DNA from: a virus
Length of the DNA: 21,185 bases
Strand: one strand, 5' to 3'
IMG/VR virus record: IMGVR_UViG_3300029986_000089
Coordinates: 1-21,185 of that record
The notes beneath the pieces are model-generated. The model made no database searches. It had not been told where the DNA came from and saw only the letters and a list, made by a program, of their open reading frames with translations. This document shows, piece after piece, positions 2,782 through 15,969 of this stretch. Position numbers and translations under genes: made by a program. The first letter of the stretch is position 1. Each line of letters begins with the position of its first letter.

Positions 2782-2796
2782 TTGCGAAACGGCCGA

Positions 2797-3794: not shown

Positions 3795-4154
3795 TTAGGG
3801 ATACCGAGCTTCTGCATAACGGTCCCCGATTGAACGATAAAGGTCACGGCGACGGTCTGACTCCGCATTGATTTGGGCAATGGTAAATTTTCGCTTGCGA
3901 TTCGGGTGCCGGATGAGGTCATCCCGCATTTCCATTAACTCATTAATGGTATAAGAAAGGATGACCGTTTCATCGGAAATGTCATCGGGGTTGATGGAAA
4001 GAATTTTGATGTTGCGGCCTTTCAGGCGTTTCTCATTAAACTGCCATTGAGCCACGGCATTCTTGCATGTTTCCAAGTCAGCCACTTCAAACACAATGCT
4101 ATTATACAAAGTCGAGTGGCCTTCCCCTTCGCTGTAATTGACGTTAAATTTCAT
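3795..4154 (-). CDS. Unknown protein, 119 aa
   Basis: The start MKFNVNYSEGEGHSTLYNSI lies 10 bases after GATAGT (4165-4170), with TTGACA at 4187-4192. The N-terminal half is beta-rich, and the C-terminal half is a charged helical region (LSYTINELMEMRDDLIRHPN, then RKRKFTIAQINAESDRRRDL) that could bind nucleic acid. It is the promoter-proximal gene of a three-gene unit (119, 89 and 204 aa), each gene with its own promoter. Confidence 0.8.
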   Translation of the reverse strand: MKFNVNYSEGEGHSTLYNSIVFEVADLETCKNAVAQWQFNEKRLKGRNIKILSINPDDISDETVILSYTINELMEMRDDLIRHPNRKRKFTIAQINAESDRRRDLYRSIGDRYAEARYP

Positions 4155-4205
4155 ATTGTGATTCACTATCGCACACTTATTCAGGTTGTCAAATGTTATT
4201 TTCAT

Positions 4206-4301
4206 GCACCGAGCCAGCATGCCCGGCATGCCGGGACGAGTTAGTACTGGTTATTACTTGTCATTATCCCGGGTCGGTGGCATGGGAATTACGTTCGGTG
4301 A
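4206..4301. repeat. Intergenic palindromic element M4
   Basis: Left arm GCACCGAGCC (4206-4215); an inner perfect palindrome TCCCGGCATGCCGGGA-like around 4221-4235; core AGTACTGGTTATTACTTG (4243-4260); right arm GGGTCGGTG (4271-4279); then TTCGGTGA (4294-4301) beside the terminator. The arms CACCGAgCC and GGgTCGGTG pair at 8 of 9 positions. It is nearly identical in layout to M5. Confidence 0.75.
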
Positions 4302-4304
4302 AAG

Positions 4305-4345
4305 ACAAATAAAAACCCCCCGGTGCAGACAATCACCGGGGGGGC
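4305..4345 (-). terminator. Intrinsic terminator after the 121-aa gene
   Basis: On the minus strand CCCCCCCGGTGATTG-TCTGCACCGGGGGG forms a stem followed by TTTTTATTTG. The downstream sequence ACGTTCGGTGAAAG is repeated after the terminators near 5150 and 6190. Confidence 0.85.
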
Positions 4346-4372
4346 GAGCGAGATGAATCCAATAGAAACCCG

Positions 4373-4738
4373 CTAAGGCTTAGTTATGGAAATTGGAGCG
4401 TGTGTCTTGAGCTTGCGGGGCTTAGGGGCCGTATGATCCAAGGCTGTATATTCATCAAAGATATGGCGATAAAGCTCATTGCCGCCTTGTCCATTGGCAG
4501 CAATTAAATCCACCACGGCCAGTCCCGTCTTGTTATTGTAGAAGAGTTGAAGGGTATTGCCCTTATTAGTGTCCATTTGGACGGTTTGAATGTTGCCATC
4601 ATTGCGGGGGTTTGCGGCCAGCAGCATATCCAGCAAGTCAGCTTTCCACTCGTCATGGCGTCCACGGCATAGACCGCTGACCCATTGGCTGAATTCTTGG
4701 CGTTGTTCGGGGGTGAATTGCTTTGTAGTAGTATTCAT
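4373..4738 (-). CDS. Unknown protein, 121 aa
   Basis: The start MNTTTKQFTPEQRQEFSQWV is set by TTGACA (4772-4777), 16 bp, TAAAGT (4750-4755), with the ATG 11 bases on. Residues 8-45 are helical (HDEWKADLLDMLLAANP), residues 52-80 look like beta strands (TLQLFYNNKTGLAVVDLIAA), and the tail is basic and Pro-rich. No family is recognised. It is the last gene of its unit and is followed by a strong terminator. Confidence 0.8.
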   Translation of the reverse strand: MNTTTKQFTPEQRQEFSQWVSGLCRGRHDEWKADLLDMLLAANPRNDGNIQTVQMDTNKGNTLQLFYNNKTGLAVVDLIAANGQGGNELYRHIFDEYTALDHTAPKPRKLKTHAPISITKP

Positions 4739-4801
4739 ATTGTGCCTATACTTTATCACACTTATTCGGTATGTCAAATTGTTTTCGAGGACAATAAATT
4801 C

Positions 4802-4993
4802 TTATGTTATGGGTTCAATATCGGCAATGATACTTGTTCCCGTCGCTTCGTCGGTATCAATTACGGCCACGGAAGGGTTAGCCGCACAGAACTCATTGGC
4901 GGTGTCGGTCGAGGCACAGAGAGCACGCACTTGAAAGCGTTTGCCATCGGCTTCAACAAACATGTGATGCCACGGATTTGAAAGAGTTAGCAT
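4802..4993 (-). CDS. Unknown protein, 63 aa, leaderless
   Basis: The start MLTLSNPWHHMFVEADGKRF lies exactly 6 bases after TAATGT (5000-5005), with TTGACA at 5022-5027. Transcription is predicted to begin at the A of ATG. The product is small, with two short beta strands and an acidic C-terminus (SVAVIDTDEATGTSIIADIE). The function is unknown. The codon pattern and the precise promoter support a real gene. Confidence 0.75.
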   Translation of the reverse strand: MLTLSNPWHHMFVEADGKRFQVRALCASTDTANEFCAANPSVAVIDTDEATGTSIIADIEPIT

Positions 4994-5039
4994 ACCAAGA
5001 CATTAACACACTTATGGTGGATGTCAAATTTTATTTCAA

Positions 5040-5138
5040 GCACCGAGCACGATGCCCGAAGCCGGTGGCCGGGACGAGTGAGTACTGGTTATTACTTGCC
5101 ATTATCCCGGGTCGGTGACGGGGATTTACGTTCGGTGA
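5040..5138. repeat. Intergenic palindromic element M5
   Basis: Left arm GCACCGAGC (5040-5048), inner GCCGGTGGCCGGGACGAG, core AGTACTGGTTATTACTTG (5081-5098), ATTATCCCGGGTCGGTGA right arm ending at 5118, then a second TTCGGTGA at 5131-5138. It shares the core and the CATTATCCCGGGTCGGTG block with M4. Confidence 0.75.
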
Positions 5139-5145
5139 AAGACAA

Positions 5146-5175
5146 ATAAAAACCCGCCAGCCTTGCGGCCAGCGG
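5146..5175 (-). terminator. Intrinsic terminator after the 90-aa gene
   Basis: On the minus strand CCGCTGGCC, GCAA tetraloop, GGCTGGCGG is followed by GTTTTTATTT. The stem has 9 pairs including two G-U. Confidence 0.88.
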
Positions 5176-5195
5176 ATTGAGAGAGATTCGAGAGA

Positions 5196-5468
5196 TTAGG
5201 CGATTTTCACCGCACCGGCGTTCAGGATTTCTCGGATATACACGTCACCCATGTCGCCATATTTCCCTGTCATCGGGGTAATCACGAGACAGAACCAACG
5301 GGCATTCGGATTTAATGCTTCGTTTTCCCGGGACTGATATTTTTTCAAAACCCGCCATGTCCAATCCCCGGCCTGCCACACTTCATACGGGTTTTCCTTG
5401 GGGCGCATCTTGGCGCACTCGTTTTTGGCCTTGGGGGGTTTGACTGTCGCTTTCGCTGTTGCATTCAT
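5196..5468 (-). CDS. Phage conserved protein, 90 aa, unknown
   Basis: After a Lys/Ala-rich N-terminus come NPYEVWQAGDWTWRVLKKYQ (26-45), NARWFCLVITPMTG and GDMGDVYIREIL. This order (PYEVW, WRVLKKYQ, ARWFC, GDVY) recalls a common actinophage/plasmid protein family of unknown function; the match is from memory. TTGACA (5526-5531), 16 bp, TAAAGT (5504-5509) gives a leader of about 29 bases without a Shine-Dalgarno. It is the last gene of its unit, before a terminator. Confidence 0.82.
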   Translation of the reverse strand: MNATAKATVKPPKAKNECAKMRPKENPYEVWQAGDWTWRVLKKYQSRENEALNPNARWFCLVITPMTGKYGDMGDVYIREILNAGAVKIA

Positions 5469-5527
5469 ATTGATTTCATTGTTGATTGTTGACTGACACT
5501 AATACTTTAGCACACTTATTCAGGATG

Positions 5528-5689
5528 TCAAATGGGAATTGTTGCCGAAATGTTGGGACACCCTTGGTTTTTCCAGAACTCCAACCAAATTGCATAAGGG
5601 GCCGACATGTATTTGGTTGCGTTGTAAAATGACGGATGCCGCAGGACAAGCCAATCATTCAAGTCAAAGATGTCGGGGGCATCATCCAT
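5528..5689 (-). CDS. Small acidic protein, 53 aa, unknown
   Basis: The ORF reads MDDAPDIFDLNDWLVLRHPS and continues with FYNATKYMSAPYAIWLEFWK to a TGA that lies inside the TTGACA of the 90-aa gene promoter. Its start overlaps the last 8 bases of the 117-aa gene, so the two are probably coupled; no separate promoter is visible. The aromatic-rich composition and exact fit between its neighbours support it, though it is short. Confidence 0.65.
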   Translation of the reverse strand: MDDAPDIFDLNDWLVLRHPSFYNATKYMSAPYAIWLEFWKNQGCPNISATIPI

Positions 5690-6035
5690 AAATCACCTCG
5701 TCAAAGATTGCGAGTTGAACAAAGGCGTCAAAATCCGTTGCGTCAGCCTGACAGAGCCAATCGTTCCACTTTTCGGGGTCGGCACTCAGGGGCGGGGGCG
5801 TGCATCCCTTGGGCCATTCAGGCGAGAACAAGAGCGGAAAAGCCGCAATGAGCTGGGCCTTGTCGAGAGTATAGTGCCGGTCCTCTTCCATGTCTTGAAA
5901 CCCAAAGAGCCAAGCATCATAGTTCCATCCATCGCATACAAGGGCATTGCCTTGGCTCGCTTCGGGGAAGTTCGCCATGATGGATTTGACGGTGGATTCA
6001 ATCAAGCTGTCGGGGATTGCAATTGTAATGTTCAT
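5682..6035 (-). CDS. Unknown protein, 117 aa
   Basis: The start MNITIAIPDSLIESTVKSIM lies 10 bases after TATAGT (6046-6051), with TTGACA at 6068-6073. The N-terminal 25 residues pair a strand with a helix, the middle has YDAWLFGFQDMEEDRHYTLD, and the C-terminus is acidic and aromatic. This resembles acidic small phage proteins, but no family is recognised. It is the first gene of the unit 117, 53 and 90 aa. Confidence 0.8.
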   Translation of the reverse strand: MNITIAIPDSLIESTVKSIMANFPEASQGNALVCDGWNYDAWLFGFQDMEEDRHYTLDKAQLIAAFPLLFSPEWPKGCTPPPLSADPEKWNDWLCQADATDFDAFVQLAIFDEVIYG

Positions 6036-6086
6036 ATTGTGATTCACTATAGCACACTTATTCAGCATGTCAAATACTTTTTTTAG

Positions 6087-6181
6087 GCACCGAGCAAGAA
6101 GGCCGGGACCGCCAACGGCTGGAAGTACTGGCCAGTATTCATGACCGATGGTCCTCGACGGGTCGGATTTACGTTCGGTGA
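6087..6181. repeat. Intergenic palindromic element M6
   Basis: Left arm GCACCGAGC (6087-6095), a fully palindromic core AGTACTGGCCAGTATT (6124-6139), GACGGGTCGG near 6157-6166 and TTCGGTGA (6174-6181). It lies between the -35 of the 117-aa gene and the terminator near 6191. Confidence 0.7.
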
Positions 6182-6190
6182 AAGGATATA

Positions 6191-6230
6191 AAAACGAAAC
6201 ACCCCGACAGAAACAGTCTGCCGGGGTGCT
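6191..6230 (-). terminator. Intrinsic terminator near 6.2 kb
   Basis: On the minus strand CACCCCGGCAGA, loop, TCTGTCGGGGTG is followed by TTTCGTTTTTATA. It serves either the 99-aa gene or the short transcript from the orphan promoter at 6254-6281. Confidence 0.88.
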
Positions 6231-6253
6231 CGCCGATATGAATACTAACCGCA

Positions 6254-6281
6254 ACTAAAACTTATTTATTCGAGTTGTCAA
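6254..6281 (-). promoter_or_regulatory. Orphan promoter with no gene before the terminator
   Basis: TTGACA (6276-6281), 16-bp spacer, TTTAGT (6254-6259). The predicted start is near 6247, and a strong terminator follows within about 50 bases. There is no ATG-initiated ORF between them. It could be the scar of a deleted gene or the promoter of a very short RNA. The -35 also carries the TGA stop of the 99-aa gene. Confidence 0.6.
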
Positions 6282-6577
6282 ACATTATTTTGGCGAAATC
6301 TTTCGATTGCCATGTAAGTCATTTTACTTAACTGCCGAGGCCAGAAACACATATCACTAGCCAAAATCCGTTGCCGTTCATCTTCATAAATTTGGCGAAT
6401 ATCCGGTGTCGAGATACGGCTTGTTTTTCCGTCATGCCACCCGACAATTTCAGCCACTAACGCTTTCACTTCGTCGAGGGTGCAATCTTCACTAACAAAT
6501 CCACCATCCATTACAGGGCACCAACTTCCCGTGGTAGTTAATGCTTCACGATGGTATCGGACTAAAAAGTAACTCAT
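6278..6577 (-). CDS. Unknown protein, 99 aa
   Basis: The start MSYFLVRYHREALTTTGSWC lies 11 bases after AATAGT (6589-6594), with TTGACA at 6611-6616. It has an N-terminal beta strand, an acidic helix (TLDEVKALVAEIVGWHDG) and a basic C-terminus (PRQLSKMTYMAIERFRQNN). The TGA stop lies inside the next TTGACA. No family is recognised. Confidence 0.8.
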   Translation of the reverse strand: MSYFLVRYHREALTTTGSWCPVMDGGFVSEDCTLDEVKALVAEIVGWHDGKTSRISTPDIRQIYEDERQRILASDMCFWPRQLSKMTYMAIERFRQNNV

Positions 6578-6623
6578 ATCGTGCCTATACTATTGCACAG
6601 AGTTGAAGATTGTCAAATCATTT

Positions 6624-7022
6624 TCAGAGAATAGGATAGTTAGTGATAAGCACACGCCGCTTTGCGTCATACTCTGCCGAGTAGTGATATTCATAGAAGG
6701 ATTCGACTTTAGTCCACTCCATGCGCTCGCCTGTCAGGACAACAGGGTGAAGGAAAGAAGGAATTCGGCTGCAATGGCGGGCAATGCTATCACTCTTCAT
6801 TAGTTTGATGTCCTCGTCTGACATAGCGTATTCCGACAGGCCGTTCGGGGCACAAATGACAAATCCACGAGGCCACGGGAAGTCAAACACGTCACCTTGA
6901 AATTGAAGATTGACTTTCATGCCAACCCTGAACTGGAAATTGCTTTTGAATGTTACTTTGCCGACTTCCACCGTATAAGGGTAGAGGCCGACAACCTTTG
7001 TGACTGTGCCTTTGATGTTCAT
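6624..7022 (-). CDS. Unknown protein, 132 aa, beta-rich
   Basis: The start MNIKGTVTKVVGLYPYTVEV is set by TTGACA (7055-7060), 16 bp, GATATT (7033-7038), with the ATG 10 bases on. The N-terminal 50 residues alternate short strands (VTFKSNFQFRVGMKVNLQFQ) like an OB or SH3-type barrel. The C-terminal half has a helix (SDEDIKLMKSDSIARHCS) and a YEYHYSAEYDAKRRVLI segment. The function is unknown. Confidence 0.8.
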   Translation of the reverse strand: MNIKGTVTKVVGLYPYTVEVGKVTFKSNFQFRVGMKVNLQFQGDVFDFPWPRGFVICAPNGLSEYAMSDEDIKLMKSDSIARHCSRIPSFLHPVVLTGERMEWTKVESFYEYHYSAEYDAKRRVLITNYPIL

Positions 7023-7063
7023 ATCGTGAGTCAATATCGCATACTTACTCAGATTGTCAAATT

Positions 7064-7465
7064 TTATTTCAACTCATCCGCCGCAACGCTCAATTCAGTC
7101 ACGTTGCTGTAATTGTTATCAATGAAATTGGCAAGCTCATCCAATGAAAGCAGAGCATTGATTGTGTCTTGGGGCAAGTGAGCTTCGGCCCCGTACCATG
7201 ACAGAACATCATTAATGAGATTGCCAAGGCTTTCACTGAGAAACTCGCCATCCTTGGTGTAAAGGATTTTCAGGTCACTTGGCTCAAGATAAAGACGCCG
7301 CATGGCCAATTGGCATCCCTCAAATTCCGGGATACCCCGTTTGATGCGCCGACAAAGCTTCACGGCATAAGGATGGAACGCAGCCATTTCAGCATTTTGA
7401 AACTTCTCGACTCGCTTATCGTGAGCGTTAATCAGCCGTCGAAGTGTTTTGGATTTAACTTGCAT
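7064..7465 (-). CDS. Unknown helical protein, 133 aa, leaderless
   Basis: The start MQVKSKTLRRLINAHDKRVE lies 6 bases after TATTGT (7472-7477), with TTGACA at 7494-7499; a longer ORF would start inside the promoter. The protein is mainly helical: a basic N-terminal helix (1-40) and an acidic C-terminal part (NALLSLDELANFIDNNYSNV). Its N-terminus resembles that of the 269-aa protein (KSKTL followed by a helix). It is the first gene of the unit 133, 132 and 99 aa. Confidence 0.8.
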   Translation of the reverse strand: MQVKSKTLRRLINAHDKRVEKFQNAEMAAFHPYAVKLCRRIKRGIPEFEGCQLAMRRLYLEPSDLKILYTKDGEFLSESLGNLINDVLSWYGAEAHLPQDTINALLSLDELANFIDNNYSNVTELSVAADELK

Positions 7466-7519
7466 GCCAATACAATACCACACTCGTTTCATTTGTCAAA
7501 AACTTTCTTATACTTTTTT

Positions 7520-7608
7520 CCGAGCATGGCCCAGCCATGCCGGGTATGCACATACTGGTCATTATTTGTGGTATTTAGGCTCGGTGAGGGTCGGTGAGGA
7601 ATCGGTGA
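7520..7608. repeat. Intergenic palindromic element M7 with three TCGGTGA
   Basis: Left arm CCGAGC (7520-7525), inner palindrome CATGGCCCAGCCATG, core CATACTGGTCATTATTTG (7551-7568), right arm GCTCGGTGA (7579-7587), then two more TCGGTGA copies (7591-7597, 7602-7608). This is the densest cluster of the heptamer in the window. Confidence 0.7.
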
Positions 7609-7648
7609 AAAAAAGAACCCCTCGACTTTTTGAGGGCCGAGGGGTTGC
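7608..7648 (-). terminator. Intrinsic terminator after the 71-aa gene
   Basis: On the minus strand AACCCCTCG, loop GCCCTCAAAAAGT, CGAGGGGTT is followed by CTTTTTTT. The stem is 9 bp and perfect. Confidence 0.88.
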
Positions 7649-7686
7649 GATATGAGGCGAGACGCCGAGGCTAAGGACTCAGTAAC

Positions 7687-7902
7687 TTAGAACCGACGTT
7701 GGAATGAAGAGACTTGCGGGGAAAGAGATTCGATTCGGACAATTTGACCGATGCCCACTTGGCGGGTCGGTGATGTATTGAGAGCAGTCAGGATGCCAAC
7801 GTAGGTTCGGGGATTGGCAATGATGGCACCATACGTTGTTCCTTGGTGCGTGTAAACCACTTTAATGGTGGACGTTTTCGGGATTTCGGTTTGTAGTTTC
7901 AT
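7687..7902 (-). CDS. Unknown protein, 71 aa
   Basis: The start MKLQTEIPKTSTIKVVYTHQ lies 11 bases after a perfect TATAAT (7914-7919), with TTGACA at 7936-7941. It is one of few genes here with a Shine-Dalgarno-like AAAGGA before the ATG. It is beta-rich (GTTYGAIIANPRTYVGILTA) with a basic end. The function is unknown. A terminator lies about 40 bases after the stop. Confidence 0.78.
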   Translation of the reverse strand: MKLQTEIPKTSTIKVVYTHQGTTYGAIIANPRTYVGILTALNTSPTRQVGIGQIVRIESLSPQVSSFQRRF

Positions 7903-7946
7903 ATTATTCCTTTATTATAGCACAGCGGTTCAGATTGTCAAATGGA

Positions 7947-8207
7947 TTATTGCAATTGGCTGTAATCATCCAAGGGCAGACGGTCATGTTCTCGCACGAA
8001 GGCAATGAACCGGGGATAATTTTCCACCGCCCATTTCGCATCTGCCAGCAACATCGTGTTACCGCTCCATTTCTGGTCGGAAGAGAGTTGCCGCAGGGCT
8101 TTGATGGCCATAATCTTTTGCGTGCCCGTATAGTTATACTTGGCCATTTCCTGTTCAATGAGGTCCGCTTTGGCCAACAGTTGTGATTTGGTTAGTTCAA
8201 TTTTCAT
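7947..8207 (-). CDS. Unknown helical protein, 86 aa, leaderless
   Basis: The start MKIELTKSQLLAKADLIEQE lies 7 bases after TATTGT (8215-8220), with TTGACA at 8237-8242. The protein is almost entirely helical, with basic and acidic faces (MAKYNYTGTQKIMAIKALRQ; YPRFIAFVREHDRLPLDDYS). It is the first minus gene left of the strand switch. No family is recognised. Confidence 0.8.
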   Translation of the reverse strand: MKIELTKSQLLAKADLIEQEMAKYNYTGTQKIMAIKALRQLSSDQKWSGNTMLLADAKWAVENYPRFIAFVREHDRLPLDDYSQLQ

Positions 8208-8256
8208 ATATCAGACAATAACACATTTATTCCGAATGTCAAATACTTTTTTTAGT

Positions 8257-8312
8257 CACCGAGCGAGGAGGCCGGGGCAGGGATGATGATTACTCAATGG
8301 GCTGTTCGGTGT
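8257..8312. repeat. Intergenic palindromic element M8
   Basis: Left arm TCACCGAGC (8257-8265), GGCCGGGGCAGG, a degenerate core GATTACTCAATGG, and right arm TTCGGTGT (8305-8312). It lies in the divergent region between the minus 86-aa gene and the plus 88-aa gene. Confidence 0.6.
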
Positions 8313-8318
8313 GTCCAA

Positions 8319-8339
8319 AGCAACTTTAACAATGTTGCT
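8319..8339. repeat. Inverted repeat upstream of the plus-strand promoter
   Basis: AGCAAC (8319-8324) and GTTGCT (8334-8339) flank a 9-base spacer, about 20 bp before the -35 of the 88-aa gene. It could be an operator. Confidence 0.4.
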
Positions 8340-8393
8340 GTGCCACTGCTACAAATCATTTGACATTTGACAACCCTGTGCTAGTATAATGAC

Positions 8394-8660
8394 ATGAAAC
8401 TTGAATCAAAGACATCTTCGCAATCCACGGTGAACTCCTATCGGATTATCACCGAAAGTCACGGGCCAATCGTCTATTTGGAATATCTCAATGAAAAGGG
8501 CCACATCATTGATGAAATCCTACGGGATGAGGATGGAAACGACATCAGCGACCCGGCCTTGCTCGAAGATGTTCAGGAATTCATTGATGCCGAGACAGAG
8601 GAACAACGGCGGGATGAAAAAAACGGCCTGTATCCGACCAAGGCCGACGTTGCCAATTGA
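8394..8660 (+). CDS. Acidic protein, 88 aa, unknown, leaderless
   Basis: MKLESKTSSQSTVNSYRIIT starts 6 bases after TAGTAT (8382-8387), with TTGACA at 8360-8365 and a second TTGACA at 8368-8373 that is too close for normal spacing. The C-terminal half is strongly acidic (EILRDEDGNDISDPALLEDV, then FIDAETEEQRRDEK), a composition seen in DNA-mimic proteins, although size and charge alone do not prove that. It is the first plus-strand gene of the window. Confidence 0.8.
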   Translation: MKLESKTSSQSTVNSYRIITESHGPIVYLEYLNEKGHIIDEILRDEDGNDISDPALLEDVQEFIDAETEEQRRDEKNGLYPTKADVAN

Positions 8661-8714
8661 TTCGGTGAAGAAATAAGCTTGACCTTGGGCAAGGGAATTG
8701 GTATTCTCTTGCCT

Positions 8715-8996
8715 ATGAACAATGCCAAATGGATTTTTAAAGATGGCCCGTCACAAATCACTTGTGACAGTTTCCCCTATGCATACCGTCTTATGTTCAA
8801 TACCTTGAAAAAGGGAGTTGAAACCGGACGTAAATACGATGAGATGGTCAAGCAATTGGTCATCATCGCCCCAACCAAAGACCAGCACGGCGACCTCCGG
8901 CGATATAATTACAATGACGCCACCGAACTCGCCAAGGCAAATGGCCTCTTAACTCCGACAGGGGAAATCAATTCAAGAGAATTTAAGCGTCGTTAA
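8715..8996 (+). CDS. Unknown protein, 93 aa, leaderless
   Basis: MNNAKWIFKDGPSQITCDSF starts 7 bases after TATTCT (8702-8707), with TTGACC (8679-8684) at a 17-bp spacing; this excludes the longer ORF that begins at 8679. It has a central helix (PYAYRLMFNTLKKGVETGRK) and a basic C-terminus (EINSREFKRR). The TTCGGTGA at 8661 lies between it and the preceding gene. A terminator follows at 9012-9040. The function is unknown. Confidence 0.78.
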   Translation: MNNAKWIFKDGPSQITCDSFPYAYRLMFNTLKKGVETGRKYDEMVKQLVIIAPTKDQHGDLRRYNYNDATELAKANGLLTPTGEINSREFKRR

Positions 8997-9011
8997 TCTC
9001 CCACCACCAGT

Positions 9012-9040
9012 CACCCCGGCCATCCAGCCGGGGTTTTTTA
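9012..9040 (+). terminator. Intrinsic terminator after the 93-aa gene
   Basis: CCCCGGC, loop CATCCA, GCCGGGG, then TTTTTTATT. It is a textbook stem and T-tract 17 bases after the stop. Confidence 0.93.
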
Positions 9041-9046
9041 TTGTTA

Positions 9047-9087
9047 ACCGGTATGAGAACATACTGGCCATTATTTGCTGTCCGGTC
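9047..9087. repeat. Intergenic element M9
   Basis: ACCGG (9047-9051), core CATACTGGCCATTATTTG (9060-9077), then CCGGT (9082-9086). The arms form a short inverted repeat around the ATACTGG core, as in M4-M7 but with different arm sequence. Confidence 0.5.
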
Positions 9088-9180
9088 CATTCTCTGACCA
9101 GCCACCCAGTTTTCTTTTTTATACATTTCCATTTGACAGCCAAATAAAGTATGCTATTGTAAAAAGGTTTAAACAATTTT

Positions 9181-9588
9181 ATGCTGTTTTATCGTATAGA
9201 AAACGAAAATCGTCTCGGCCCGTATGCAGGGGTTGGAACGATTAACAGTGGAATTAGTGGAACGGCCACTACTCTTCATCCATTGCCTCAAGAGGATGAG
9301 TTATTGAAATTCGTCATACCGACCATCCATAGGGGATACTATTTCTCAGGCAAGTTACGATTTGGATTTTCCAGCCTTGAGCAACTTCGGACATGGTTTA
9401 ACGACGTTTCGGATTTGGGTCGCTTAACGGAACATGGATTTCACCTGAGTATCTATAAAGTCCCCAAAGTCTATGCGGGGGAGACCCAAAGTGTAATCGA
9501 AGCGGATTATCATATCGTTGAAAATTTGAAGGAGAAACACAATTTGGACGAAATTCACTTGACAACTTTTCAACCTGTGGTAGAATAA
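9181..9588 (+). CDS. Phage conserved protein, 135 aa, function unknown
   Basis: MLFYRIENENRLGPYAGVGT is followed by HPLPQEDELL (33-42), RFGFSSLEQLRTWF (59-72), HGFHLSIYKVP (86-96) and a C-terminal helix. The order FYRIEN..GPY, then FGFSSLEQLxxWF, then GFxxxxYxV recurs in uncharacterised phage and plasmid proteins (memory-based). TTGACA (9133-9138), 16 bp, TATTGT (9155-9160); the leader is about 14 bases with AAAAAGG before the start. It opens a plus-strand run of three genes. Confidence 0.85.
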   Translation: MLFYRIENENRLGPYAGVGTINSGISGTATTLHPLPQEDELLKFVIPTIHRGYYFSGKLRFGFSSLEQLRTWFNDVSDLGRLTEHGFHLSIYKVPKVYAGETQSVIEADYHIVENLKEKHNLDEIHLTTFQPVVE

Positions 9589-9592
9589 GAAT

Positions 9593-9784
9593 ATGAAAAT
9601 GTACATCCGATTCTTTCGGAACAAAGAGGATGGCGTCCCCATAAACTCATTGTATGTGTGCCCCGGTGGTAACGACAAGGCAAACTGCCTGAGTAGCGAT
9701 GCCGATACGATCAAGACCGCCATTGACGAATGGATGGAATTATTTGCCAATGGCAAGGTGGATTTCGTATGGCTTGTCGTTTGA
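9593..9784 (+). CDS. Unknown protein, 63 aa, leaderless
   Basis: MKMYIRFFRNKEDGVPINSL starts 6 bases after TAGAAT (9581-9586), with TTGACA (9559-9564) inside the end of the 135-aa gene. It is a short beta-then-helix protein (SDADTIKTAIDEWMELFANG) ending VDFVWLVV. Its TGA stop is inside the TTGACA (9781-9786) of the following gene. No family is recognised. Confidence 0.75.
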   Translation: MKMYIRFFRNKEDGVPINSLYVCPGGNDKANCLSSDADTIKTAIDEWMELFANGKVDFVWLVV

Positions 9785-9814
9785 CAAATATCAATTTGGT
9801 GCTACAATAAGGAT

Positions 9815-10198
9815 ATGGATATACAATACACAAAGCAAGTGGATTTCCTCGGTCGCAACGGGGCGTATGCTCAAAAAGGAATATCCGTCAACACCTATGG
9901 CAACAAGACCAAGGTCACTCTCGAACCCATCACCAGCAAGGGTTTGGTGGGCCGTGCCAGCCTTGAAATCCCGTTGGAAGATGTTCCCTCGGTGATTCAG
10001 GCATTACATCAAGCCGCCGACCTGAAACCATCTGAATCGGTGACGTTGACCCGTGCCCAATGGAATCGCATCAAGCTCTTAATTGACCATGCGATTCAAT
10101 TCGGTGAACAGCAACCGAATGCGACTGATAATCATCGCTTTACCCTCGTCAACCTTTTGGAACGGGAAGCTGAGGTCAAAAAATTCGTTCCAGCTTAA
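9815..10198 (+). CDS. Unknown protein, 127 aa, leaderless
   Basis: MDIQYTKQVDFLGRNGAYAQ starts 6 bases after TACAAT (9803-9808), with TTGACA at 9781-9786. The N-terminal 65 residues are beta-rich (TKVTLEPITSKGLVGRASLE) and the C-terminal half is helical. Three TCGGTGA heptamers lie inside this gene (9989, 10037, 10101), encoding unrelated residues in different frames, so the motif is not a protein-level repeat. The gene ends 21 bp from a convergent gene. Confidence 0.82.
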   Translation: MDIQYTKQVDFLGRNGAYAQKGISVNTYGNKTKVTLEPITSKGLVGRASLEIPLEDVPSVIQALHQAADLKPSESVTLTRAQWNRIKLLIDHAIQFGEQQPNATDNHRFTLVNLLEREAEVKKFVPA

Positions 10199-10219
10199 TA
10201 CTTCCGATAGCTTAACTGG

Positions 10220-10432
10220 CTAGAGCCTTGGGACAATAATCTCCTTGAAACTATTCACGGGAACGTCGCAGTATTCAACTAAATCTCCATAAATATCCGC
10301 AGTCTTCCCCTGATGACTGATGATCGTATTCACGATTATTACGTCCCACTTCCGTAGTTGTTTGTCATAAACTTCATCAAGTCTATCATCATAGACTTGT
10401 ACCAGAACATCACGAAGCATTTGGATTTTCAT
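10220..10432 (-). CDS. Unknown protein, 70 aa
   Basis: MKIQMLRDVLVQVYDDRLDE is followed by WDVIIVNTIISHQGKTADIY and VEYCDVPVNSFKEIIVPRL, a plausible alpha/beta fold. The promoter is weaker than usual: TATTTA lies 5 bases before the ATG, but only a TTGGAA at a 20-bp spacing precedes it. It converges on the 127-aa gene. The function is unknown. Confidence 0.7.
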   Translation of the reverse strand: MKIQMLRDVLVQVYDDRLDEVYDKQLRKWDVIIVNTIISHQGKTADIYGDLVEYCDVPVNSFKEIIVPRL

Positions 10433-10477
10433 AACGATAAATACCGGATATTACATACAAAACTTCCAAGTCGGTGA

Positions 10478-10513
10478 ATAAAAAAAGAACCCCGACTCTT
10501 TCGAGCCGAGGCC
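10478..10513 (-). terminator. Intrinsic terminator after the 132-aa gene
   Basis: On the minus strand CCTCGGCTC, GAAA tetraloop, GAGTCGGGG is followed by TTCTTTTTTTATTC. The stem has 9 pairs including G-U. A GTCGGTGA heptamer abuts it. Confidence 0.88.
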
Positions 10514-10534
10514 ATTGCCAAGGTGAGCCGGGGA

Positions 10535-10933
10535 TTAAACTGAAAGAAACTGATGGATAGGCAATAACTCGCCTTCCGGATTGCTGTGGGTGATTGAAGT
10601 AAAGTCTTTGGTGAAAGACTCTTCCGTGGTCAGGGGGATATATTGATTCCTCCCGCCCGTGTAATCCTTATAATGTTCAGCCGTGCGAATCAGCATGGAT
10701 TCTTTGCTCCACCGCAAATCGGAAATGGAAAAATACCAAACCGCATTCCCGAGAGTAAAGAACCCCGACATGTCGAAATGATTCGGCTTGCCAATGACAA
10801 TGTTTGTGGCTCCTTTGGATTCAAGGAACTTGGTGAACGCCCGCTTAAACAAGCGGTGCCAAGAAAGATATTGCGGCGTCCTTGACGAGGATGATTCAAA
10901 TTCTTGCTGTGTTGATTGTAATGCTTTTTTCAT
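10535..10933 (-). CDS. Unknown protein, 132 aa, leaderless
   Basis: MKKALQSTQQEFESSSSRTP starts 6 bases after TATTGT (10940-10945), with TTGACA at 10962-10967. After a Ser/Gln-rich start come HRLFKRAFTKFLESKGATNI (26-45) and GFFTLGNAVWYFSISDLRWS (57-76). The latter pattern (strand pairs with W and D) is vaguely like small nuclease-fold or restriction-like proteins, but no catalytic signature can be assigned. It is divergent from the plus-strand 160-aa gene. Confidence 0.8.
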   Translation of the reverse strand: MKKALQSTQQEFESSSSRTPQYLSWHRLFKRAFTKFLESKGATNIVIGKPNHFDMSGFFTLGNAVWYFSISDLRWSKESMLIRTAEHYKDYTGGRNQYIPLTTEESFTKDFTSITHSNPEGELLPIHQFLSV

Positions 10934-10939
10934 ACCGAC

Positions 10940-11029
10940 ACAATATCACACTCCCCGAACTTGTCAAATGGTATTTATATTTTCTTTTCCAAAAATAACA
11001 TTTGACAACCAATGCACATGTGCTAGAAT
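10940..11029. promoter_or_regulatory. Divergent promoter pair
   Basis: The minus promoter TTGACA (10962-10967)/TATTGT (10940-10945) and plus promoter TTGACA (11002-11007)/TAGAAT (11024-11029) face away from each other. The 34 bp between the -35 boxes is AT-rich (TATTTATATTTTC), consistent with shared UP elements. Confidence 0.8.
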
Positions 11030-11035
11030 GAGAAT

Positions 11036-11518
11036 ATGAATACACTCCCCTTACAGGGTGAAGTTGACGAGTTCTTGCGGGACTTCTTTCCGAAACATAA
11101 GGACGAATCCTTTTATCTTACCGCCCTCACTTCCCTTGTCATTGAACACTTTGGCGTCACCGCCGAGGATGCCGCTCTCAAATATGACCATTCCCACGGT
11201 CAAACCTCCGGCGAAACCACTCGTATTGAGCAACTTGCAAATCGGGGATGCGTGCATCTTCTTTTGAGCAACCATGCCAAGCGAACGGGACCAAACGAGT
11301 ATCGGGACATTCATGGACCAAAGCCCGTGTATTCGCCTCACCGCCTGTCCCGCAAGCTGGTTTCCGAGGCACGGGTCTCGGTGAGACTTCTTAAAAGTCT
11401 TTCGGACCCCAAGTGGCAAGACCCTACCACCATCTTCATGGAACTCACGGGCCGCACCTTTTCTGACGAAGTGATTGAAGCTGCTATAGCTCATGAATTC
11501 GCAACCAAAACAACTTGA
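11036..11518 (+). CDS. Unknown protein, 160 aa, leaderless
   Basis: MNTLPLQGEVDEFLRDFFPK starts 6 bases after TAGAAT. It is mostly helical: a possible helix-turn-helix-like segment at 28-45 (TSLVIEHFGVTAEDAALKYD) and a basic middle (RIEQLANRGCVHLLLSNHAK). It then has PHRLSRKLVSEARVSVRLLK and an acidic C-terminal helix. No family is recognised. Its TGA stop is in the TTGACA of the next promoter. Confidence 0.82.
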   Translation: MNTLPLQGEVDEFLRDFFPKHKDESFYLTALTSLVIEHFGVTAEDAALKYDHSHGQTSGETTRIEQLANRGCVHLLLSNHAKRTGPNEYRDIHGPKPVYSPHRLSRKLVSEARVSVRLLKSLSDPKWQDPTTIFMELTGRTFSDEVIEAAIAHEFATKTT

Positions 11519-11548
11519 CACTTGCTCGGTGAACTGCTATCCTAACTT

Positions 11549-12013
11549 ATGACAATGCCTGACAGCTTTAACGAGTATAAACGTCGTATGGAAGCTGAGG
11601 GCTACCATATTGCCATGCAACCTATTCAACTCACCCCCGGACGCTTTCCACTTCCCACGCCATATCCCAACTCTTGGTCAATCGAACGTCAACTCATCGA
11701 AGCCGTAAGGGAAGGGAACCTTTTACTCGAAGCCGAAGCCAAAGAAGGGAAGCCTGCCCCTAGTTCGGTGAAACCAGATGCCAAGACCGCCGTGGAAGAT
11801 GCTCTTGCGTCTAAATCCGATAATCCTTATGTTCGGGCACGGGCACAAATTCTTTCCAAATTGGACCCTCATATACGGTCATTAATTGAGCACTTTGAAA
11901 CTTTATCATCTGAACTTCGGGCAAAACAGAGTTTCAATCAACGAACCAGATACGATACATTTTGTAAACAGGTCACTGAGTTGGGAGACAAATTAAGTAA
12001 TAACCCCACTTGA
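11549..12013 (+). CDS. Unknown helical protein, 154 aa
   Basis: TTGACA (11515-11520), 17 bp, TATCCT (11538-11543). The first ATG (MTMPDSFNEYKRRMEAEGYH) is 5 bases on; a second ATG two codons later is possible. The N-terminus has a Pro-rich stretch (LTPGRFPLPTPYPNSW, 27-42). From 50 on the protein is helical and charged, with a likely coiled region (IRSLIEHFETLSSELRAKQS). Its stop again lies in a TTGACA. The function is unknown. Confidence 0.8.
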   Translation: MTMPDSFNEYKRRMEAEGYHIAMQPIQLTPGRFPLPTPYPNSWSIERQLIEAVREGNLLLEAEAKEGKPAPSSVKPDAKTAVEDALASKSDNPYVRARAQILSKLDPHIRSLIEHFETLSSELRAKQSFNQRTRYDTFCKQVTELGDKLSNNPT

Positions 12014-12075
12014 CAATTTTCAATGGTTTGGTATGCTATTGACGAAACTGAAACACACTACAATACAAAAACAAT

Positions 12076-12270
12076 ATGTTCAAAATTGATGATTCAATGC
12101 TTGGTCGGAAGTATTATACGATGGACCCCAAGACCCGCTACACCATCCGTGGATTCGCCCTGAACGGCACCCTCCTCGTAATAGGTGAATACGCCGACGA
12201 CCCGAACAACGTCAACACCGAACATCGGATAGCGTCTCACAAACTAACCGAAATCCATTTGGTCCAATAA
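12076..12270 (+). CDS. Small phage conserved protein, 64 aa
   Basis: MFKIDDSMLGRKYYTMDPKT, then RYTIRGFALNGTLLVIGEYA and a KLTEIHLVQ end; this looks like a compact beta-barrel. Similar GRKY..DP..xYTxxGxAxNxTLLVxGxY proteins recur in phages (memory-based). TTGACA (12010-12015)/TATGCT (12032-12037) gives a leader of about 32 bases, A-rich and without a Shine-Dalgarno. It is followed at 5 bp by the 72-aa gene, probably co-transcribed. Confidence 0.82.
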   Translation: MFKIDDSMLGRKYYTMDPKTRYTIRGFALNGTLLVIGEYADDPNNVNTEHRIASHKLTEIHLVQ

Positions 12271-12275
12271 AATTT

Positions 12276-12494
12276 ATGGGAATCAAAGAACAAGTCAAAA
12301 GTGGCCAACTGACCCCGCAAGAGGCAATGGCCAAGGTCTCCAAGGACAGTCACACCTACGGCTGGTGCAAACGCCGTGGACACAAACATGTGCCCGCTCC
12401 CGTGGCCGAGGCGGCTCACGCTCCCTCCGATGCCTCCGACGAGAAAGCCAAGAACCAATACAAGCAGAAGAAATACCAGAAGGCCAAGAAGTAA
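12276..12494 (+). CDS. Small basic protein, 72 aa, phage/plasmid type
   Basis: MGIKEQVKSGQLTPQEAMAK begins with the VKxGxLTPQEA helix pattern and a TYGWCKRRG segment known from small phage and plasmid proteins of unknown role. A Pro/Ala linker and a Lys-rich tail (KNQYKQKKYQKAKK) follow, suggesting nucleic-acid binding. It has no own promoter and follows the 64-aa gene. A perfect terminator lies 17 bases after the stop. Confidence 0.8.
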   Translation: MGIKEQVKSGQLTPQEAMAKVSKDSHTYGWCKRRGHKHVPAPVAEAAHAPSDASDEKAKNQYKQKKYQKAKK

Positions 12495-12510
12495 TTGAGC
12501 GGCTAAACAG

Positions 12511-12542
12511 ACCCCGAATGAGCAATCATTCGGGGTTTTATT
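12511..12542 (+). terminator. Intrinsic terminator
   Basis: CCCCGAATGA, GCAA tetraloop, TCATTCGGGG, then TTTTATTTT. The 10-bp stem is perfect. Confidence 0.95.
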
Positions 12543-12560
12543 TTGTACCATTATAACACA

Positions 12561-12580
12561 ATTACTGGACATTATTTGCT
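12561..12580. repeat. ATACTGG-type element M10 upstream of the GIY-YIG gene
   Basis: ATTACTGGACATTATTTGCT carries the core of the intergenic elements without the CACCGA/TCGGTGA arms. It lies 10 bp before the endonuclease ATG and could be part of its promoter. Confidence 0.5.
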
Positions 12581-12590
12581 ATTTATTTAC

Positions 12591-13268
12591 ATGAGTTCAG
12601 GCATCTATAAAATAATAAATAAAATCAATGGAAAATACTATGTTGGACGGTCATCCAACCTCACCAAACGGCTTACCAAACATAAACGATTACTCAAAAC
12701 AAACACACATTTTAATGACCATTTACAAAATGCGTGGAACAAATATGGTGAGCAAAACTTTGAATTTGTTATTGCTGAAAGAATGAGTGGACCCAAGGCG
12801 TTAATAGACACCGAACAAAGACATCTTGATATAGCCAAATCCAATCCGTGTGAATGTTACAACCAAATGTTTACTGCCGAAACAATAGAAGTAACAGAAG
12901 AAATGAAGAGGAAAATAAGTGCAACTCTAAAAGGTGTTCCACACTTTCCAATGCGAAAAGAAACGTCAAAACTCTTAGGTGATATAAACCGTGGGAAACG
13001 TCTTACCATAGAACATCGAAAGAAAATAAAGTTAGCTAACACAGGGAGAAAATTTCCAAATAGAGCTAAAGAGTCAGCATTTTACAAACTCCAAAACTCA
13101 TTCACCAATGAATTATTTGAAGGAACCCGCACTGATTTCTGTCATCAATTTCAAATACCAAGTAGTCGAATAAGTGATTTATTATATGGTCGAAGACCCC
13201 GAGTCAGGGGATGGACTTTACTTACGACTTCTTGTATTTCTGACACGCTATCTCATACGCCGCTTTAA
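12591..13268 (+). CDS. GIY-YIG homing endonuclease with NUMOD3-type repeats
   Basis: From the ATG at 12591, GIY is at 4-6 and YVGRSSNLTKRL at 17-28 includes the expected catalytic Arg (27). NAWNKYGEQNFEF is at 47-59 and the metal-binding Glu (75) falls in DTEQRHLD. From about 105 on, SATLKGVPHFP and GDINRGKRLTIEHRKKIKLA are NUMOD3-like DNA-binding segments, followed by a C-terminal DNA-binding region (IPSSRISDLLYGRRP). The gene is clearly more AT-rich than its neighbours and lacks the common TTGACA promoter, as expected for a later insertion. Its last 15 codons overlap the 3' end of the convergent zinc-ribbon gene. Confidence 0.93.
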   Translation: MSSGIYKIINKINGKYYVGRSSNLTKRLTKHKRLLKTNTHFNDHLQNAWNKYGEQNFEFVIAERMSGPKALIDTEQRHLDIAKSNPCECYNQMFTAETIEVTEEMKRKISATLKGVPHFPMRKETSKLLGDINRGKRLTIEHRKKIKLANTGRKFPNRAKESAFYKLQNSFTNELFEGTRTDFCHQFQIPSSRISDLLYGRRPRVRGWTLLTTSCISDTLSHTPL

Positions 13269-13449
13269 TAGTTGAGCCAAAGCCCTCCACATTTTCGTGG
13301 CATGTAGGAGCACATCTATTCTCACACCGAACCTTAATTCCCCGAGCCGTGGTATAGACCATCAGCGGCCCACCACAGAGGGAACAGTGGATTGTGCTGT
13401 CGAGGACCGGAGGGGTCGGGACAAAGAGAGCTTCGGGTAAAGCAGCCAT
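13222..13449 (-). CDS. Zinc-ribbon protein, 75 aa, Lar-like architecture
   Basis: C22-x2-C25 (CSLCGGPLMV) and C42-x3-C46-x3-C50 (CENRCAPTC) are followed by a helix GSTIKAAYEIACQKYKKS. A CxxCG pair, a VRC pair and a final Ala-rich helix is the layout of small phage Lar-type zinc ribbons; Lar moderates type I restriction in lambda-like phages. The assignment is tentative because the second cluster has an extra Cys. It starts 3 bp after the stop of the 113-aa gene and is probably co-transcribed. Its 3' end is overlapped by the GIY-YIG gene. Confidence 0.75.
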   Translation of the reverse strand: MAALPEALFVPTPPVLDSTIHCSLCGGPLMVYTTARGIKVRCENRCAPTCHENVEGFGSTIKAAYEIACQKYKKS

Positions 13450-13452
13450 AGG

Positions 13453-13794
13453 TCAGGACATGCTGGCGGGATTAAACGAGGCGATACGAAATTCCTTGGC
13501 TTTGGATTGCAGGAACTTCTTGAATTTCCAACCGTTGTCGGTGTTCTCCAACCCAGTGAAATGAGCGGTGGTCGAGGAAATGAGCCGAACCTTGCGAAGT
13601 TGAGAATTCCACGGTTGAGTGCTCATCGGATACCAGAACGTCACCAATGGATTCTTTTCGACATCCGAGGGCTTGGGAAGCGGCTTGGCAAAGCGGCCAT
13701 CCTTGCGGCGGGGCTGAGTCCGTGCCTTGAGAAAGTTCAACTTGGCCCGCAGTTTGGGGGTCAGTCCTTTGGCAGATGCGTAAACGATAATCAT
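13453..13794 (-). CDS. Unknown basic protein, 113 aa, leaderless
   Basis: MIIVYASAKGLTPKLRAKLN starts 6 bases after a perfect TATAAT (13801-13806), with TTGACA at 13823-13828. Residues 12-45 are very basic (LKARTQPRRKDGRFAKPLPK), then VEKNPLVTFWYPMSTQPWNS and a basic C-terminus. The layout suggests nucleic-acid binding. This is the most consensus-like promoter in the window. The function is unknown. Confidence 0.82.
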   Translation of the reverse strand: MIIVYASAKGLTPKLRAKLNFLKARTQPRRKDGRFAKPLPKPSDVEKNPLVTFWYPMSTQPWNSQLRKVRLISSTTAHFTGLENTDNGWKFKKFLQSKAKEFRIASFNPASMS

Positions 13795-13824
13795 AGTGTT
13801 ATTATAACCGCTTTTATATGTTTG

Positions 13825-14052
13825 TCAAGCGTCCAAAAGAAAAATTGTAGTATCCCCACCAATTCCTAATTGAACTAAGGACTCTTCGGACAGACACCGA
13901 CAAGCTTGACAGACATCGGATGGACCCTCCGCCCACAGCCGATATTGTGTCCAATCAGCCAATACGTTATCAATCAAAACACCCGATTGATAATCATGCA
14001 CCGCTGCCATCGCAATTCCGTGGGTCGGGATTTTACTGTTCAACGTTTTCAT
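13825..14052 (-). CDS. Unknown protein, 75 aa, leaderless
   Basis: MKTLNSKIPTHGIAMAAVHD starts 6 bases after GAAAGT (14059-14064), with TTGACA at 14081-14086. A longer reading would begin inside the promoter. It contains a Cys pair CQACRC near 48-53 and an acidic end (LGIGGDTTIFLLDA). Its TGA stop is inside the next TTGACA. No family is recognised. Confidence 0.78.
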   Translation of the reverse strand: MKTLNSKIPTHGIAMAAVHDYQSGVLIDNVLADWTQYRLWAEGPSDVCQACRCLSEESLVQLGIGGDTTIFLLDA

Positions 14053-14086
14053 ATACACACTTTCGCACACATATACGTTTTGTCAA

Positions 14087-14227
14087 CTAATATCCCCCAA
14101 GAAAAGTAAGCACCCACCGCATAGTCAGATGTTCTTGTTTGACTTCAAACGTAGCGGTGGACCCGTGGAAATAACGAAGAAATTCGGCCAACTCTTTCAG
14201 GTCGTTGAAATAAATTTTTCCATTCAT
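14087..14227 (-). CDS. Small protein, 46 aa, leaderless
   Basis: MNGKIYFNDLKELAEFLRYF continues HGSTATFEVKQEHLTMRWVL to a TAG directly abutting the TTGACA of the 75-aa gene. The ATG is 5 bases after TATATT (14233-14238), with TTGACA at 14255-14260. Despite its size, the exact promoter and tight packing support it. It looks like one helix plus a beta hairpin; the function is unknown. Confidence 0.68.
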   Translation of the reverse strand: MNGKIYFNDLKELAEFLRYFHGSTATFEVKQEHLTMRWVLTFLGGY

Positions 14228-14256
14228 ATCTCAATATAACCTATGACTGTAGATTG

Positions 14257-15066
14257 TCAAATTGAAATTGTTGTCTCCCGCATAAACGCTTGCAGACACG
14301 CCGCCGCAGCCCGTGGTTCACCGTTAAATATCCGGATGGCAGGAACTTTCATAAACCACGAATTGCCAAGGATTTGATCACGGGGGATATTCAATCGTCG
14401 CTCCGCAAATGATAACGACCCCTCGACACAGTTCCCCGCACGGATTGAATCATCCAAAGTAACATATGTGGAATTCAATTGGAGTTTTAGAAGTTCCTCA
14501 AAACGAGCATATTCCAACTGTTGAAGACGTTTTTGCTTGTTTTGGGCATGGTTATTGATAATATCATCAATGGTAATACCATCCGTCCAATACGGATGAT
14601 AATCCACTCCATCGGAATCAATGGCAACAATACCCATATTGTCTTTGTCCCAATGCCACCCATCGGGAAGGATAAACTTGGATACAACATCGCTGGGAGC
14701 TTTGAGCCATTCCAATTTACGACCCCCAAAGACAGCGACGGATTCAATGTGAATTTCGTGTAATGCCGAGGTCAAAGTTCGCCAACCCTTGCCGTATTTA
14801 TAGACACTTTCATGGTTACGGTCAATGATATAAGGAATACGGGCGGCAAATACCCGAAAGAGATATTGACGTTTGGATTCAACCGAATGAAGTCCACGTC
14901 CACCGACAGGCATCAAATGCCCTAACGTAAACTCCGGACAGATTTCGGGGGCTTGAATGAGTTTTGCCAAGGCAAGATATTCTTGCTGATACCGCTTCCA
15001 CTGAGAGATAGTTGACGGTGCCCGCTTGTTAAGAGCTTCAATTTTCTTTAGCGTTTTCGATTTCAT
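14257..15066 (-). CDS. Unknown protein, 269 aa, C-terminal DSxxAGNCxxG domain
   Basis: MKSKTLKKIEALNKRAPSTI starts 6 bases after TATTTT (15073-15078), with TTGACA at 15095-15100. Residues 1-40 are helical. 60-130 includes ESKRQYLFRVFAARIPYIID, and 138-175 is aromatic/acidic (LPDGWHWDKDNMGIVAIDSD). The C-terminus has VTLDDSIRAGNCVEGSLSFA (201-220) and ends EPRAAAACLQAFMRE. A DSxxAGNCxxGxxxFA motif is shared with uncharacterised phage/plasmid proteins; I cannot assign an activity. The TGA stop is inside the next TTGACA. Confidence 0.85.
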   Translation of the reverse strand: MKSKTLKKIEALNKRAPSTISQWKRYQQEYLALAKLIQAPEICPEFTLGHLMPVGGRGLHSVESKRQYLFRVFAARIPYIIDRNHESVYKYGKGWRTLTSALHEIHIESVAVFGGRKLEWLKAPSDVVSKFILPDGWHWDKDNMGIVAIDSDGVDYHPYWTDGITIDDIINNHAQNKQKRLQQLEYARFEELLKLQLNSTYVTLDDSIRAGNCVEGSLSFAERRLNIPRDQILGNSWFMKVPAIRIFNGEPRAAAACLQAFMRETTISI

Positions 15067-15117
15067 ACCCGTAAAATATCACAGGTAATTGAAATGTCAA
15101 ATGGATTTTTCCTGTAT

Positions 15118-15206
15118 TATTACTTATATTCTTTTACTCTTTTTTCCGTTCACGAGCCGCCACGCCGCCACAAGCGGCAAGGCGAGTGTGGAAAGAATAA
15201 GTACTT
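15118..15206. repeat. Large imperfect hairpin
   Basis: ACTTATATTCTTTT (from about 15121) pairs imperfectly with GGAAAGAATAAGTA (near 15190-15203). The centre is a GC-rich hairpin GCCGC, CACAA, GCGGC (near 15170) flanked by CGCC/GGCG. It sits upstream of the 269-aa gene in otherwise AT-rich DNA. It could be a terminator remnant, a REP-like element or a transposon end. No ORF is present. Confidence 0.5.
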
Positions 15207-15284
15207 TATAAATAAGACAGTAATAATTAGCAAACCACTTTTCCCAAACCATCAATATAAATAATGGAAAATATGGTGACACAA

Positions 15285-15520
15285 CCTATTGGGGTGTTTT
15301 CTTTTTGGATACCATTAGTAGTATATCAATTGGGGTGTAGATACTGGATATTATTTGGATATAATTCAATGGGATTTAGGTTCGGTGAGTCATGAATAAT
15401 ACAATAGGTTGGGGTATCAATGAAACTATACACCACCCATTGTGTCTAAATACTGGACGTTATATGCACCATTCCGGCAGTAAAATGGTTCGGTGAATCC
15501 ATATAACATTCGGTGATAAA
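15285..15520. repeat. Repeat-rich spacer with elements M11 and M12
   Basis: AACCTATTGGGGTGT (15289 on), ATTGGGGTGTAGA (15329 on) and AGGTTGGGGTATCA (15407 on) share a TTGGGGT core. AACCTATTG/CAATAGGTT and the ACACC/GGTGT pairs form nested inverted repeats. Two ATACTGG cores (15340, 15450) are each followed by TTCGGTGA (15381, 15489), and a third TTCGGTGA is at 15509. There is no credible ORF. This is the spacer between the ncRNA terminator and the 269-aa gene promoter. Confidence 0.55.
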
Positions 15521-15745
15521 AACGAAACGGCGGTTGAAGATAATGCTTAACATGACTGACAAGCATCACAATCAACCGCCGTTATACTTTATAGTGCTAT
15601 TGAGAAGTGTGACTTCTCCGCACTGTATCTTGTTACCTTTAGTCCACGTTTAATTCTGTCTCTGCTTACCCTTTCGGGCTATGATGGCGAGGCTCTCCAT
15701 CAATGACCTACCTGTAACAAGACTTAGTTCCCCTATCCCAAAACT
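15520..15745 (-). ncRNA. Structured non-coding RNA, about 225 nt, unknown family
   Basis: It has its own promoter (15750-15777), no ORF, and a strong terminator at its end. On the minus strand TCTTGTTAC (15722-15714) pairs perfectly with GTAACAAGA (15636-15628). This closes a domain containing TGATGG/CCATCA (15702-15682) and a GAAA-capped hairpin AGCCC-GAAA-GGGT (15680-15668). A third hairpin follows: GTGC, GAGAAG, TCACA, CTTCTC, GCAC. The 3' end is AACGGCGGTTGA...TCAACCGCCGTT (15583-15526) with an inner ATGCTT/AAGCAT stem and TTTCGTTTTTATC. It matches no RNA class I know (not RNase P, SRP, 6S or tmRNA). Confidence 0.72.
15521..15584 (-). terminator. Intrinsic terminator of the ncRNA
   Basis: A 12-bp perfect stem AACGGCGGTTGA/TCAACCGCCGTT plus an inner ATGCTT/AAGCAT stem, followed by TCGTTTTTATC on the minus strand. 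Confidence 0.85.
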
Positions 15746-15749
15746 ACAT

Positions 15750-15777
15750 CTTATACTACGGGAACCAAAATTGTCAA
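15750..15777 (-). promoter_or_regulatory. Promoter of the ncRNA
   Basis: TTGACA (15772-15777), 16-bp spacer, TATAAG (15750-15755). The geometry is the same as the gene promoters, but no ATG follows. The predicted start is near 15743. Confidence 0.75.
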
Positions 15778-15849: not shown

Positions 15850-15969
15850 CGGGGTAGGGAGGATTTGAACCTCCACGCTGTACATGCTTCCCGAATACTT
15901 CACTGCACGGGTCTAACTAGTATTTCCGTCTCATTTTTCTACGGGTGCGTCTTATTCCGCCACTACCCC
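15850..15969 (-). tRNA. tRNA-like gene with oversized anticodon region
   Basis: The acceptor GGGGTAG (15969-15963) pairs perfectly with CTACCCC (15857-15851), and the T arm is perfect (GGAGG-TTCAAAT-CCTCC). The 5' part TGGCGGAATAAGACGCA resembles a class II (Leu-type) D arm but lacks the usual GG of the D loop. CCCG (15945-15942) can pair with CGGG (15893-15890) as an anticodon stem, leaving a 48-nt loop where 7-9 are expected. AAGCATGTACAGCGT would be a long variable region. No CCA is encoded and no anticodon can be assigned. It starts 5 bp after the stop of the 63-aa gene and is probably co-transcribed. It could be a degenerate tRNA, a tRNA with a 39-nt insertion, or a tRNA mimic. Confidence 0.6.

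Follow-up and report, generated by a model that had tools for sequence, protein, structure and literature searches.

A putative self-contained non-coding RNA gene without Rfam relatives on a contig with a distant jumbo-phage relative of 354 kb

Introduction

Does a stretch of phage DNA that has a promoter and a terminator, with no gene between them, encode an RNA of its own, or is it the leader of a neighbouring gene or the remnant of a lost one? This question is raised by positions 15517 to 15777 of a 21,185-base virus record, which we refer to as the window, and for which an initial annotation had proposed a new structured RNA. The window is a viral contig, and a jumbo phage of 354 kb is a distant relative. 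Protein-guided searches of IMG/VR, in which four proteins served as queries, recovered an identical contig (IMGVR_UViG_3300031524_000144) and a single distant relative, IMGVR_UViG_3300031884_000002 (353,772 bases), which is linked to the window by a 72% identical protein that we take to be DUF932-like.

Results

The RNA unit is carried by the minus strand. All of the elements named in the initial annotation, which gave no strand, are present there. The unit begins with a sigma-70-type promoter (15777-15750, minus), in which a 16-nt spacer separates TTGACA (15777-15772) from TATAAG (15755-15750). The window-wide promoter scan classed this promoter among the 18-nt variants; the form TTGACA-16-TATAAG comes from a separate reading. 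By our criterion the window contains 34 promoters with an exact TTGACA, the spacer being 16 nt long in 30 of them, and the RNA promoter has TTGACA and this spacer in common with about 30 gene promoters, in line with the earlier statement that it is of the type that drives genes here. An ATG lies close behind most of the other TTGACA promoters; behind the RNA promoter there is no gene start.

The gene promoters follow a uniform layout. Window genes are preceded by TTGACA-N16-TANNNT, one promoter per gene, with the ATG modally 6 nt past the -10 box, and many mRNAs should therefore be leaderless or nearly so. The 354-kb relative displays the same -10-to-ATG peak, at 6-9 nt.

With a putative 5′ end 6-7 nt past the -10 box, the spacing of promoter and terminator predicts a non-coding transcript of about 227 nt (15744-15517, minus; MFE z -6.0 to -7.0). 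No ORF of more than 16 codons occurs on the transcript strand of this unit, and the longest ATG frame has exactly that length, which agrees with the earlier estimate of about 225 nt without an ORF. The transcript ends in a strong intrinsic terminator (15583-15517, minus), found both in the predicted fold and in the window scan, which consists of a 12-bp stem, AACGGCGGUUGA/UCAACCGCCGUU (15583-15572 / 15537-15526), an upper stem and the tail UUUCGUUUUU.

The tail sequence GTTTCGTTTTTAT is common to this terminator and the terminator at 6199, and the element TCACCGAA stands immediately after the RNA terminator just as it does after the terminators at 6199, 5148 and 4311. The nonamer directly 3′ of the RNA terminator, TCACCGAAT (15516-15508, minus), is one of 12 copies of TCACCGAAY (1109-15516; 0.42 expected), all of them on the minus strand and several directly behind terminators. 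This element is perhaps a later promoter or a binding site. A second motif, TACTGG-N2-ATTATTTG, is intergenic and lies 45-60 bp from TCACCGAAY.

Two further regions drew our attention. At 6281-6190 (minus) a TTGACA-16-TTTAGT promoter is followed some 20-30 nt later by a strong terminator with the GTTTCGTTTTTAT tail, an arrangement that could encode a second, very short RNA. Between 15100 and 15510, the sequences TACTGG, GGTTCGGTGA and ATTGGGGTGT recur within about 400 bp that have no annotated frame; this stretch may serve in control or in replication.

The plus strand of the RNA region also folds (z -5.2), but we rejected a plus-strand reading because the promoter and the U-tailed terminator are compatible with the minus strand only. 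We also rejected a leader or riboswitch of the next gene downstream (14257-15066): that gene has its own promoter at 15100-15073, so that both a terminator and a separate promoter intervene, and the earlier view that the RNA is not a leader is thereby upheld. Since its promoter and terminator are of types common to the phage genes and enclose no ORF, the RNA appears to be a self-contained non-coding transcription unit built from protein-gene signals. An own promoter, an own intrinsic terminator and the lack of a protein-coding frame are among the features of an independently transcribed phage non-coding RNA. All three are present here, and we consider it very probable that the unit is a real non-coding RNA gene.

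In the predicted fold, the 5′ portion of the transcript forms a domain closed by helix P1, in which GUCUUGUUAC (15723-15714, minus) pairs with GUAACAAGAU (15636-15627, minus) through nine Watson-Crick pairs and one G-U pair, with pair probabilities of about 0.9-1.0 for the 5′ strand. Inside P1, two short helices with internal loops between them (P2; pair probability 0.74-0.89) lead to a three-way junction with the hairpins P3 (UGAUGG...CCAUCA, 15702-15682) and P4 (GCCC-GAAA-GGGU, 15679-15668). The P1 domain is followed by hairpin P5 (AGUGC-GAGAAGU-CAC-ACUUCUC-GCACU, 15624-15593) and then by the terminator. Pair probabilities in P1, P3, P4, P5 and the terminator are mostly 0.8-1.0. The architecture described earlier, in which a perfect 9-bp closing helix surrounds two hairpins, one of them GAAA-capped, and a third hairpin precedes a 12-bp terminator, is thus reproduced in full. 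A 20-nt segment between P4 and P2, AAGCAGAGACAGAAUUAAAC (15667-15648, minus), is unpaired in both the MFE and the centroid structure and is a candidate interaction site.

The fold also bears on the 16-codon ATG ORF (15700-15650, minus), which lies within the P1 domain and would encode the peptide MESLAIIARKGKQRQN. The transcript could in principle be a small mRNA for this peptide, with translation controlled by the structure. We regard this as very improbable: the ORF begins about 45 nt into the transcript with its start paired in P3, whereas genes here begin about 6-11 nt from the -10 box, and an ORF of 16 codons is expected by chance alone.

How far the fold exceeds chance depends on the segment considered. 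Relative to shuffled sequences, the whole unit including the terminator has an MFE z-score of -6.96, the 144 nt ahead of the terminator a z-score of -4.63, and the 161-nt core a z-score of -3.6, its native energy being reached in none of 300 shuffles. Only 4/200 shuffles contained a perfect helix of 9 bp or more that closes 50 nt or more. The window around the terminator is the most extreme of the 704 scanned in the record (z -8.3), and truncating the terminator in a 200-nt window left a z-score of only -1.7 (20 shuffles), so part of the fold signal stems from the terminator and the significance of the core is moderate. Of the earlier interpretation, the self-contained non-coding unit without a known Rfam family stands; the functional multi-domain RNA is putative, as predicted from the thermodynamics of a single sequence.

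No Rfam family matches the RNA at the gathering threshold, and with the isolated region and E-values up to 10 the library returned only the neighbouring tRNA-like element and two chance-level matches. The assertion that the RNA belongs to no known Rfam family, for which an Rfam search had been suggested as a check, accordingly survives both the strict and the permissive threshold. The RNA matches neither Rfam nor ARAGORN models of RNase P, SRP, 6S RNA or tmRNA, nor the Rfam models of ROOL and GOLLD; together with the lack of a group I match, this bears out the earlier exclusion of RNase P, SRP, 6S, tmRNA and group I introns. The same library did recover, in the 354-kb relative, a tmRNA along with numerous tRNAs, which serves as a positive control.

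A tRNA-Leu-like gene, which ARAGORN overlooks at default settings, occupies 15850-15969 (minus), with a promoter at 16036-16008 (minus) and an Rfam tRNA score of 35 bits. Its acceptor and T arms are perfect and its D arm is of the Leu type, with about 48 nt in place of the anticodon loop; it may contain a tiny intron, or be a degenerate tRNA or a tRNA-like RNA. In the 354-kb relative, a tRNA-Leu(UAA) at about 43,600-43,950 (L018:3600-3960, minus) is split in its anticodon by a 192-nt group I intron, as in the cyanobacterial tRNA-Leu introns.

Derivation of the RNA itself from a group I intron or from a tRNA would accommodate this intron and the sequence GCAGAGAC in the RNA, which is reminiscent of a group I P7 region. 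When given the isolated region, however, RF00028 detects the intron of the relative with 52.1 bits and finds nothing in the RNA, which makes a group I origin unlikely, and we rejected a group I intron with this positive control in hand. Moreover, GCAGAGAC has no partner in a P7 arrangement in the fold, and no exons flank the RNA, which is bounded by a promoter and a terminator of its own. Descent from either source is the least probable of the readings that we weighed.

Homologue searches extended beyond Rfam. We found no relative of the RNA in INPHARED by blastn, only chance 29-nt matches in PLSDB by blastn, and no counterpart by blastn or covariance model in the 354-kb relative, which was retrieved piecewise. 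Three IMG/VR scans with DNA patterns taken from the internal loops and the junction and one GTDB pattern scan likewise produced no relative. Applied to the 354-kb relative and to all pattern matches, the single-sequence covariance model detected nothing beyond the identical contig. We discarded its best off-target match (L045, 9.4 bits), which merely reproduces the pattern that had fetched that sequence. The reach of a single-sequence model is limited, and diverged relatives may therefore have been missed. As the identical contig was the sole homologue recovered, the sequences offer no compensatory changes.

The absence of conservation beyond the identical contig, the wealth of small accessory genes in this phage and the significant yet moderate z-scores of the terminator-less fold (-3.6 to -4.6) would all suit decayed or neutral intergenic sequence, in which a former small gene has kept its promoter and terminator and the fold is a by-product. 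We consider this possible but unlikely, for the region has neither a reading-frame remnant nor tblastx similarity to the 354-kb relative, and its helices are undamaged, P1 being perfect over 9 bp and the probabilities lying near 1.

Three unpaired stretches of the RNA were compared with 33 promoter-proximal start regions in the window, and their duplex energies were no better than those of shuffled queries. This search took in the window, a minor part of the phage genome, and makes a target there unlikely. The options that are left are a partner protein, a target in the host or a structural role.

Discussion

We propose that the locus is a lineage-specific phage RNA gene. Host sigma-70 RNA polymerase would read it from the promoter type that the many small monocistronic genes nearby also use, in all likelihood at an early stage of infection, and the transcript would fold and then be released at the intrinsic terminator. 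The product would be stable, about 227 nt long and composed of the P1-closed two-hairpin domain, the 20-nt unpaired strand, P5 and the terminator hairpin. It might then act in trans by offering the unpaired strand or the internal loops of P2 to an RNA-binding protein or to an RNA, of the host or of the phage, much like the regulatory or decoy RNAs described from phages. We infer transcription and its early timing, as well as the stability of the RNA and its action in trans, and taken as a whole we give this scheme an even chance of being correct. Action in trans considered separately falls slightly short of that. Against the scheme stand the interrupted U tail UUUCGUUUUU, which differs from a classic Hfq tail, and the fact that the sole other copy of the RNA is in a 100% identical contig. 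It is conceivable, though rather doubtful, that the RNA founds a new family of structured phage RNAs that share a conserved three-way-junction core and a defined molecular task early in infection and are confined to a jumbo-phage lineage that has been poorly sampled.

Many uncharacterised RNAs are suspected in large phages, and few of them have been found because most have no Rfam relatives. The unit described here indicates that such genes can be detected through transcription signals common to phage protein genes and, provided that it is expressed, it would offer a test case for the roles of early phage RNAs. The present evidence amounts to one orphan RNA gene and no new principle.

The tRNA-like neighbour makes a comparison with two groups of phage RNAs natural, and implies no membership in either. 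The RNAs RNAC and RNAD are encoded in the tRNA gene cluster of T4, and the RNA described here likewise adjoins a tRNA-like gene; our INPHARED and Rfam searches are what covers a sequence relation to them. Both T4 RNAs are small and stable, and their function is unknown (PMC9697503). They are classed as late, whereas our RNA, with its own sigma-70-type promoter and terminator, is for that reason likely to be early. ROOL and GOLLD are folded phage RNAs of unknown function that often lie by tRNA islands and have Rfam profiles (PMC12286853). Our RNA is similarly a folded phage RNA, with a tRNA-like gene that has its own promoter (15850-15969, minus) about 100 nt upstream. It could thus be a structural or storage RNA of this tRNA-island type, exemplified by RNAC, RNAD, GOLLD and ROOL, which are abundant, folded RNAs produced alongside tRNAs, rather than a base-pairing regulator. 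We hold this to be improbable, about as much so as decayed sequence, since the existing Rfam profiles of ROOL and GOLLD do not match, these RNAs are three to four times longer (659 to >800 nt versus about 227 nt), and a single tRNA-like element is no island.

The reading that we prefer, a non-coding RNA with action in trans, has counterparts in trans-acting phage sRNAs, for example VpdS of phage VP882 and 24B_1 of phage Phi24B, which have known targets or Hfq binding (PMC12197685). Like them, our RNA is phage-encoded, non-coding and apparently an independent transcription unit; unlike them, it has no known target, partner or homologue. Phage-derived sRNAs are a known kind of RNA whose functions are largely unknown (PMC12197685), and the RNA described here is, like RNAC and RNAD of T4, ordinary in kind and new in sequence.
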